From positions 1 to 32,920 of the IMG/VR virus record IMGVR_UViG_3300047560_001924: a stretch of DNA of 32,920 nucleotides; one strand, written 5' to 3'. The notes below the pieces were generated by a model. That model was not told where the DNA came from. It ran no database searches and worked only from the letters and a program-made list of their open reading frames with translations. The position numbers were made by a program, and so were the translations under genes. Positions 8,841-23,982 of this stretch are shown here, one piece after another. The stretch is from a virus. Position 1 is the stretch's first letter, and the number at the start of each line of letters is the position of its first letter.

Positions 8841-8848
8841 TATAAATA
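8841..8848 (+). promoter_or_regulatory. Putative late promoter TATAAATA (exact T4 consensus)
   Basis: An exact TATAAATA in a 40-base gap between the 491-aa gene and the membrane protein gene. Only 8 bases separate it from the ATG at 8857, less than at the other motifs. A weak GC-rich hairpin (GCCCTTGGGC, 8830-8839) lies just before it. Confidence 0.6.
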
Positions 8849-8856
8849 ATTTGACT

Positions 8857-9192
8857 ATGGGACCAATCACAAAAAATCTCTATAAACAAATTACTGGATG
8901 GCGCATCTATTCAGTAATCGCACCTGCCGTTTTCTGCGGTGTGTCTGCGTTCTTGTTTTTACACTACGGTACACCATTCCAGTCGATTTTCTACTCTGGA
9001 TTAATTATACTAGCAATTACTTGTATTAGCTGGTGGCATTGGAGTCTGTCAACAATGGTTACAATGCTGTTAATTATGAAAGACACTGACGATCATTTCG
9101 AAAAACTTAACAAAACTTTAGAAGAGTTGCGTACTCACACTGCTGGTAGACCGAACCTAACAGTAGTCAAAAAAGTTGACGAATCTAAATAA
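8857..9192 (+). CDS. Small membrane protein, two to three helices (111 aa)
   Basis: I start it at the ATG at 8857; a TTG six bases earlier is in frame. Residues 18-37 (RIYSVIAPAVFCGVSAFLFL) and 44-63 (SIFYSGLIILAITCISWWHW) are hydrophobic helices, followed by a third shorter one (STMVTMLLIM) and a charged helical tail (DDHFEKLNKTLEELR). There is no ribosome site in the short space after the late motif, so the transcript could be nearly leaderless. The shape fits a holin or envelope protein, but no family is recognised. Its stop codon overlaps the next CTAAATA. Confidence 0.66.
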   Translation: MGPITKNLYKQITGWRIYSVIAPAVFCGVSAFLFLHYGTPFQSIFYSGLIILAITCISWWHWSLSTMVTMLLIMKDTDDHFEKLNKTLEELRTHTAGRPNLTVVKKVDESK

Positions 9193-9203
9193 TAAAGTAT
9201 AAT
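9176..9203 (+). promoter_or_regulatory. Sigma70-type promoter of queD
   Basis: -35 TTGACG (9176-9181), 16-bp spacer and a perfect -10 TATAAT (9198-9203). Transcription would start near 9209-9210, giving a 95-base leader before the queD ATG. A CTAAATA late-type motif (9185-9191) overlaps the spacer, so the gene may also be read late. Confidence 0.7.
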
Positions 9204-9205
9204 TA

Positions 9206-9303
9206 CTGGATAAGGCACATTTATCCAGGCAAATATAGGCTAGAGGACTTTAGACGCTCATCCCTCGTAAAATATTCTGCGTGTCATCTTATAGGATAAC
9301 AAG
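9206..9303 (+). promoter_or_regulatory. Structured queD leader with two alternative pairings
   Basis: A strong 8-bp hairpin is formed by CTGGATAA (9206-9213) and TTATCCAG (9221-9228) around a 7-base loop. The core of its 3' arm, TTATCC (9221-9226), is also exactly complementary to GGATAA at 9294-9299, which holds the ribosome-binding site just before the ATG at 9304. The two pairings exclude each other, the pattern of a translational switch. Smaller helices are possible between (GAGG 9243-9246 with CCTC 9263-9266; ACGC 9254-9257 with GCGT 9279-9282). It does not match the preQ1-I consensus I know. Confidence 0.5.
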
Positions 9304-9855
9304 ATGACTTGGATCATTGATAAAACTTTTGAATTCTGTTACGGACACAGAGTTCATACTCAAACGCTAAACGGCGAATATGCCGCTGACTTAAAATGTG
9401 CTTGCCGCCACTTACATGGGCATGAAGGCAAGATGCAAGTGTTTTTAACAGCACCAAAATTAGATAATACTGGTATGGTTACTGATTTTAGACATTTGGA
9501 ATGGCTAAAGAAATGGATCAACACATACATTGATCACCAATTTATTATTGACAAAAATGACCCACTCTACAATAAAATCATTGGCGACCGAGGCTTGGTA
9601 CCAGTATTGGTCCCCGGTACTGACCACGTGGCAGGCTATCATTTGGATCTCACAGGGTTGCAAGAAAACACACCTGAATACGAATATTACGAAGGGTTTA
9701 TGGTGGTTGATTTTGTTCCCACTAGTGAGCATTTGTCTAGTTGGATGGCTGAACTAGTACAAGCTAAAATGAAGGCATTGGGCGTAACTGTTCAACGTAT
9801 TGAATGGTGGGAAACTCCAAAATCTCGCTCAGTATTTTATCGCGACGGTGTTTAA
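9304..9855 (+). CDS. queD: 6-carboxytetrahydropterin synthase QueD-like
   Basis: 183 residues of the PTPS/QueD family. Zinc ligands are His15 (YGHRVH) and His38/His40 in CRHLHGH; the catalytic cysteine of that motif is Cys34. The Asp77-His78 pair (YIDHQFI), the PTSEHLSSWM segment and Glu170 in WWETPKS complete the active site. QueD converts dihydroneopterin triphosphate to 6-carboxytetrahydropterin, an early step to queuosine precursors (preQ0/preQ1). In phages this pathway can feed 7-deazaguanine modification of DNA as well as tRNA. The protein is about 60 residues longer than E. coli QueD because of an insertion around residues 85-135 (LVPVLVPGTDHVAGYHLDL...), which other long phage/bacterial members also have. 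It has its own promoter and a structured leader. No other queuosine gene is in the window. Confidence 0.9.
   Translation: MTWIIDKTFEFCYGHRVHTQTLNGEYAADLKCACRHLHGHEGKMQVFLTAPKLDNTGMVTDFRHLEWLKKWINTYIDHQFIIDKNDPLYNKIIGDRGLVPVLVPGTDHVAGYHLDLTGLQENTPEYEYYEGFMVVDFVPTSEHLSSWMAELVQAKMKALGVTVQRIEWWETPKSRSVFYRDGV

Positions 9856-11895: not shown

Positions 11896-23981
<12,086 letters not shown>

Positions 23982-23982
<1 letters not shown>

Follow-up and report, generated by a model that had tools for sequence, protein, structure and literature searches.

The leader of a phage queD gene was found to carry a compact pseudoknot whose 3' edge can alternatively pair with the start-codon region of the gene. 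That the element is a genuine regulatory RNA, carried by phages and absent from Rfam, is near certain, and it is highly probable that it is a translational switch in which the two folds compete. Sequence comparison establishes the pseudoknot, its association with PTPS genes and no others, and the incompatibility of its second helix (P2) with the start-codon hairpin (P3). The best explanation of the whole, taking its steps as correlated, is a cis-acting regulatory RNA that switches translation ON, and we consider this reading moderately probable.

The window, that is, the whole stretch of DNA analysed, comprises 32,920 nucleotides (positions 1 to 32,920 of IMG/VR virus record IMGVR_UViG_3300047560_001924). 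This 32.9-kb virus encodes a ClpP-like/head maturation protease, a DNA ligase, virion structural proteins and tail-fibre proteins, and the window is therefore a tailed-phage fragment. A single 4015-aa open frame at 11935-23982 probably encodes a giant tail-fibre or adhesin-like protein. The queD gene (9304-9855, plus strand, like the leader features described below) encodes a 183-aa PTPS-family protein resembling 6-carboxytetrahydropterin synthase (PF01242, E 9.8e-27; PHROG 2389, QueD-like), whose nearest solved structure by sequence is 3jyg.

The element occupies 9242-9308, between the two repeats on which the initial annotation had built a switch, and combines an H-type pseudoknot of ~45 nt (P1 and P2, 9242-9285) with P3 (9283-9308). 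The P1 5' strand, AGAGG (9242-9246), pairs through 9243-9246 with the covarying 3' strand CCUC (9263-9266); A9242 and G9267 are unpaired in the window, whereas most relatives have A-U or U-A at that position. L1 (9247-9252) starts with ACU, an instance of the NCU triplet that follows P1 at all 119 distinct sites among the matches listed. The P2 5' strand, GACGC (9253-9257), sits within the P1 loop, which gives the pseudoknot topology, and covaries with its partner GUGUC (9281-9285), the last three bases of which also begin the anti-start strand. We rejected the register ACGC/GCGU for P2, since in L009, L017 and L024 only GACGC/GUGUC is retained. Comparison of leaders defined L2, UCAUC (9258-9262; UCANC in the family), which places a C immediately 5' of the P1 3' strand, and the A-rich L3 (9267-9280; NNNAWANAYUCUGC). 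In P3, the anti-start strand GUCAUCUU (9283-9290) pairs with AAGAUGAC (9301-9308), which includes the queD start codon (9304-9306), and sequence and fold place the Shine-Dalgarno (SD) AGGA (9293-9296) in the loop. The family consensus reads A-GNGG, NCU, a variable stretch, the P2 5' strand, UCANC, CCNC-U, NNNAWANAYUCUGC and the P2 3' strand.

Covariation in P1 and P2, as read from the alignment, was very strong. Across 74 non-redundant sequences (alignment A1), 93.4% of P1 and P2 pair cells were standard, compared with 70.6±1.1% after shuffling, a comparison somewhat inflated by relatedness, and with at most 58.2% in slid controls, which retain relatedness and agree. Double changes numbered 158 (51.5 when shuffled), and the covariation score was 0.577 (0.155 when shuffled). 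The middle pair of P1 occurs as A-U, C-G and U-A, and at each P2 pair between four and six kinds of standard pair occur. Permutation tests run independently on P2 and P1 also counted in favour of the pseudoknot.

Evidence independent of any RNA pattern came from 80 viral contigs carrying the closest QueD homologues, which were gathered by QueD protein similarity alone: 35 of the 80 leaders contained the motif. Pattern scans of viral contigs yielded more than 200 further sites. The first scan used only L2, the P1 3' strand and L3 and returned at least 120 sites; it made no use of either P2 strand, the P1 5' strand, NCU, the start region or the gene that follows. Conserved bases in the three segments searched for were partly imposed by the pattern and were excluded as stand-alone evidence. 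Among the matches listed, P1 and NCU were present at 159 of 159 sites, after addition of four genome-contig sites and removal of L092, a chance pattern match in a coding region. Likewise among the matches listed, 150 of 151 readable downstream proteins fell into one PTPS BLAST cluster, the remaining one being that of L092. Two more scans, run as a second test, produced 123 new core matches, 104 with P1 and NCU and 19 without. A PTPS gene lay downstream in 102 of the 104, the other two having no readable gene, and in none of the 19. Since 102 of 102 readable full-fold sites and 0 of 19 core-only sites precede PTPS, the fold predicts the gene. The element thus shows a conserved aptamer-like structure together with a strict gene association, as is general for riboswitches. 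All 24 large phage records inspected (64 to 382 kb) held one copy each.

Scanning 84,980 genomes of bacteria and archaea with a strict pattern returned four sites, all on contigs from two metagenome-assembled bins; a PTPS gene could be read behind three of them, and the contig of the fourth ends just past the start codon. These are probably phage contigs, and the element is phage-only so far. Each bin holds two motif contigs (L202 and L204 in MED657; L201 and L203 in YR_bin-4742), which suggests that DNA of two or more phages was misbinned in each. A BLASTN search with the region found no match among cultured phages, and model R1, run on nine cultured-phage PTPS loci (R5C, ACP17, BUCT-ZZ01, BcepGomr, phi30-2, Motura, Vibrio 2.275.O, CP20 and X1) and 17 motif-less QueD homologue loci, matched the window alone.

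PTPS proteins encoded downstream of the motif vary widely, that of the window and that of L103 sharing 25% identity over 76 residues, yet the motif is absent from QueD relatives ~80% identical to the window protein (e.g. L023 and L025). Descent along the gene tree alone therefore does not account for where the leader occurs. L140 (6234-7172, minus strand) has a context syntenic with the window; there a single motif lies ahead of a tandem pair of PTPS genes from separate subfamilies, one encoding 141 aa (HGH type) and the other 171 aa (HGY type). The L103 gene (1849-2352) and most motif-linked genes belong to the commoner subfamily, of STKTY/FRQWRA type, with CxxxHGY as against CxxxHGH in the window. 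Proteins of this type appear to lack a further His and have no relative among solved structures by sequence; their metal site or chemistry may be altered.

Because the P2 3' strand can alternatively pair with the start region, the two folds compete; three bases (GUC in the window) are common to P2 and P3. In the free fold, the bases of the P2 3' strand were paired in 115 of 118 leader tails, mostly with the start-codon region, and a strong P3 was missing in a few leaders (L164, L185 and L193). CAUUG strands occurred only with CAAUG starts (13/13), and CAUC or CGUC strands almost only with GAUG or GGUG starts (84/85), matched changes through which P3 has been kept. P3 helices averaged 6.7 bp, compared with 6.05±0.07 bp when start regions were exchanged and 3.78±0.10 bp when strands were shuffled. 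The mean unpaired value of the AUG was 0.10 in the free tail, 0.40 with P2 locked and 0.12 with a control 5-mer locked; locking P2 lowered rather than raised accessibility in 7 of the 118 leaders. It cost the tail a mean of 4.8 kcal/mol in folding energy, a figure that does not include the energy of the pseudoknot itself. By computation, the aptamer-like fold and the expression platform are mutually exclusive, and since the AUG opens when P2 forms, a stabilised pseudoknot is predicted to turn translation on.

We propose that, when the signal is absent, GUCAUC at the 3' edge of the pseudoknot would pair with GAUGAC in the start region to form P3, closing the AUG. In the presence of the signal, most likely a small 7-deazaguanine/pterin-pathway metabolite that binds the conserved loops, the P1/P2 pseudoknot would be stabilised. 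P2 would then hold GUC, P3 would lose its closing base pairs, and ribosomes could start queD. The ON direction, predicted from folding energies, is probable; a small-molecule ligand rather than a protein is the candidate signal with slightly less assurance, and a 7-deazaguanine or pterin metabolite is favoured. We give an even chance to the full proposal of a new phage-specific riboswitch class that senses such a metabolite, frees the start codon and turns PTPS/QueD translation on. ON logic would be unusual for a biosynthetic gene if the ligand were the end product.

The main rival holds that a phage or host protein binds the pseudoknot, throws the P2/P3 switch and activates translation. Com, a translational activator of phage Mu, offers a precedent: the mom start codon lies in a stem that Com binding is proposed to melt (PMC6483171). 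The situation here is the same, a phage modification-pathway gene with a closed start codon, and conserved loops can serve as protein sites. In Mu, however, the protein binds a hairpin, whereas the queD leader has a covarying pseudoknot and no known activating protein. The same ~45-nt core also precedes genes for PTPS proteins only ~25% identical, and does so in very different phage records, and no co-conserved regulator is known, short of a systematic search. We regard a protein activator as unlikely.

A highly diverged preQ1 class I riboswitch with longer P2 and L3 is improbable, although preQ1-I has the nearest architecture among known systems. Both preQ1-I (RF00522) and the phage element are tiny H-type pseudoknots in mRNA leaders, with a P1 of 4-5 bp (AGAGG/CCUCU-like), an A-rich L3, a C just before the P1 3' strand and a 7-deazaguanine pathway gene downstream. 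The pair of bases preceding the preQ1-I P1 3' strand is UC in type I and AC in types II and III (PMC11625349). In the phage element this C, which was part of the search pattern yet is present too in leaders found by protein similarity, is always there, and among the matches listed it is preceded by U at 76, C at 24 and A at 19 of 119 sites. However, NCU follows P1 where types I and III have UU flanking the P1 5' strand, P2 is longer (usually 4-5 bp), and L3 runs to about 13 nt and ends in UCUGC. The preQ1 switches reviewed work by SD occlusion or transcription termination (PMC11625349). In the phage element the P2 3' strand is not itself the SD but can pair with the start-codon region, and the predicted logic is ON. 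The initial annotation had seen no preQ1-I consensus. Rfam gave no match to RF00522 at the gathering score, and at E up to 10 no preQ1 match was found in eight loci or in the leaders of the window and of L157. Given the absence of an Rfam match, the different triplet, the longer P2 and L3 and the start-masking P2 3' strand, we do not file the element as preQ1-I.

An RNA thermometer or a static start-codon hairpin with no specific signal could draw on P3, which closes the AUG by itself and might act by melting. Such a device needs neither a covarying pseudoknot nor conserved unpaired loops, both of which are present, and it is very improbable.

Transcription of the leader is predicted to begin at about 9210-9212, from a putative sigma-70-like promoter, TTGACG-N16-TATAAT (9176-9204), with 11 of 12 matches and boxes at 9176-9181 and about 9198-9204. 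A -10 box lies upstream of P1 in 76 of 116 relatives, at a median spacing of 8 nt. In many relatives the pseudoknot element forms the extreme 5' end of the leader; in the window it lies ~30 nt further in. Just 5' of the motif in L001 and L004-L006, AT-rich inverted repeats (e.g. CTAGTATA...TATACTAG) overlap the -10 box and are possibly an operator. Upstream in the window, TATAAATA (8841-8848) resembles a T4-type late promoter and precedes a small gene at 8857.

The initial annotation had also proposed a translational switch in the queD leader. That part is strongly supported; the pairings it suggested give way to the P1/P2 pseudoknot competing with P3. Its sequences are all in place, with CTGGATAA at 9206-9213 and TTATCCAG at 9221-9228 forming a hairpin (9206-9228), and GGATAA at 9208-9213 and 9294-9299. 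Only 1.45% of dinucleotide shuffles of the leader contain a perfect 8-bp hairpin with a loop of 3-10 nt, whereas a repeated 6-mer appears in 60% and is expected by chance. The hairpin is lineage-specific and, like the second GGATAA, missing in most relatives that retain queD, and its 5' arm lies mostly upstream of the predicted start. As the predicted +1 falls inside that arm, a transcript from this promoter could not form the 8-bp stem, which could arise only in read-through transcripts; read-through from the T4-like sequence at 8841-8848 would take in the hairpin. TTATCC was found in 0 of 28 checked relatives with queD and the pseudoknot motif, so homologues retain queD without the paired segments, the outcome that the initial annotation had named as refuting its pairings. 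Among these 28, two GGATAA copies occurred only in L013 and L014, which have identical leaders with TTATTC as the partner, and in several relatives the leader begins directly at the pseudoknot element. A switch in which TTATCC pairs alternately with the two GGATAA copies, though all three sequences are present, is hardly credible given the lack of conservation, the position of the 5' arm and the chance level of the repeat. Minimum-energy folding of the whole leader, by a program that cannot draw pseudoknots, was no better than for shuffles (z = -1.15 and -1.16).

Among 25 motif-bearing records, PTPS was present in all and GTP cyclohydrolase I (folE) in 15; QueC-like matches occurred in eight, of which three were above the cut-off and not all were convincing. 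PF01702 detected a TGT/DpdA gene in none of the 25, although DpdA may be too diverged for that model. PTPS genes of the L103 type in cultured phages adjoin folE, queC or queE, so a role in 7-deazaguanine synthesis is likely. Tiny and widespread, the element is linked to a single enzyme step in phages many of which also carry folE, and the identity of its signal would reveal how base modification is timed or metered in the course of a phage infection. To our knowledge, few riboswitch classes are known mainly from phages. If the proposal is correct, this class is carried by hundreds of phage contigs, some of more than 300 kb, before enzymes that may be only ~25% identical.

The Rfam 15 search at gathering and relaxed thresholds returned only chance matches to unrelated families, and we did not find the motif described in the open-licence literature, although a description may exist elsewhere. 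With SAM-V, an H-type pseudoknot translational riboswitch (PMC6061858), and others of that kind, the element shares control of translation by a pseudoknot; it differs in sequence and downstream gene and has no Rfam match to them. THF-II (the folE motif) resembles it as a leader RNA of a pterin-pathway gene. THF-II RNAs are located exclusively before folE (PMC6800512), whereas the phage motif, which neither matches the THF-II model nor lies before folE, occurs singly in each record before a PTPS gene, even where folE is also encoded (15 of 25 records).
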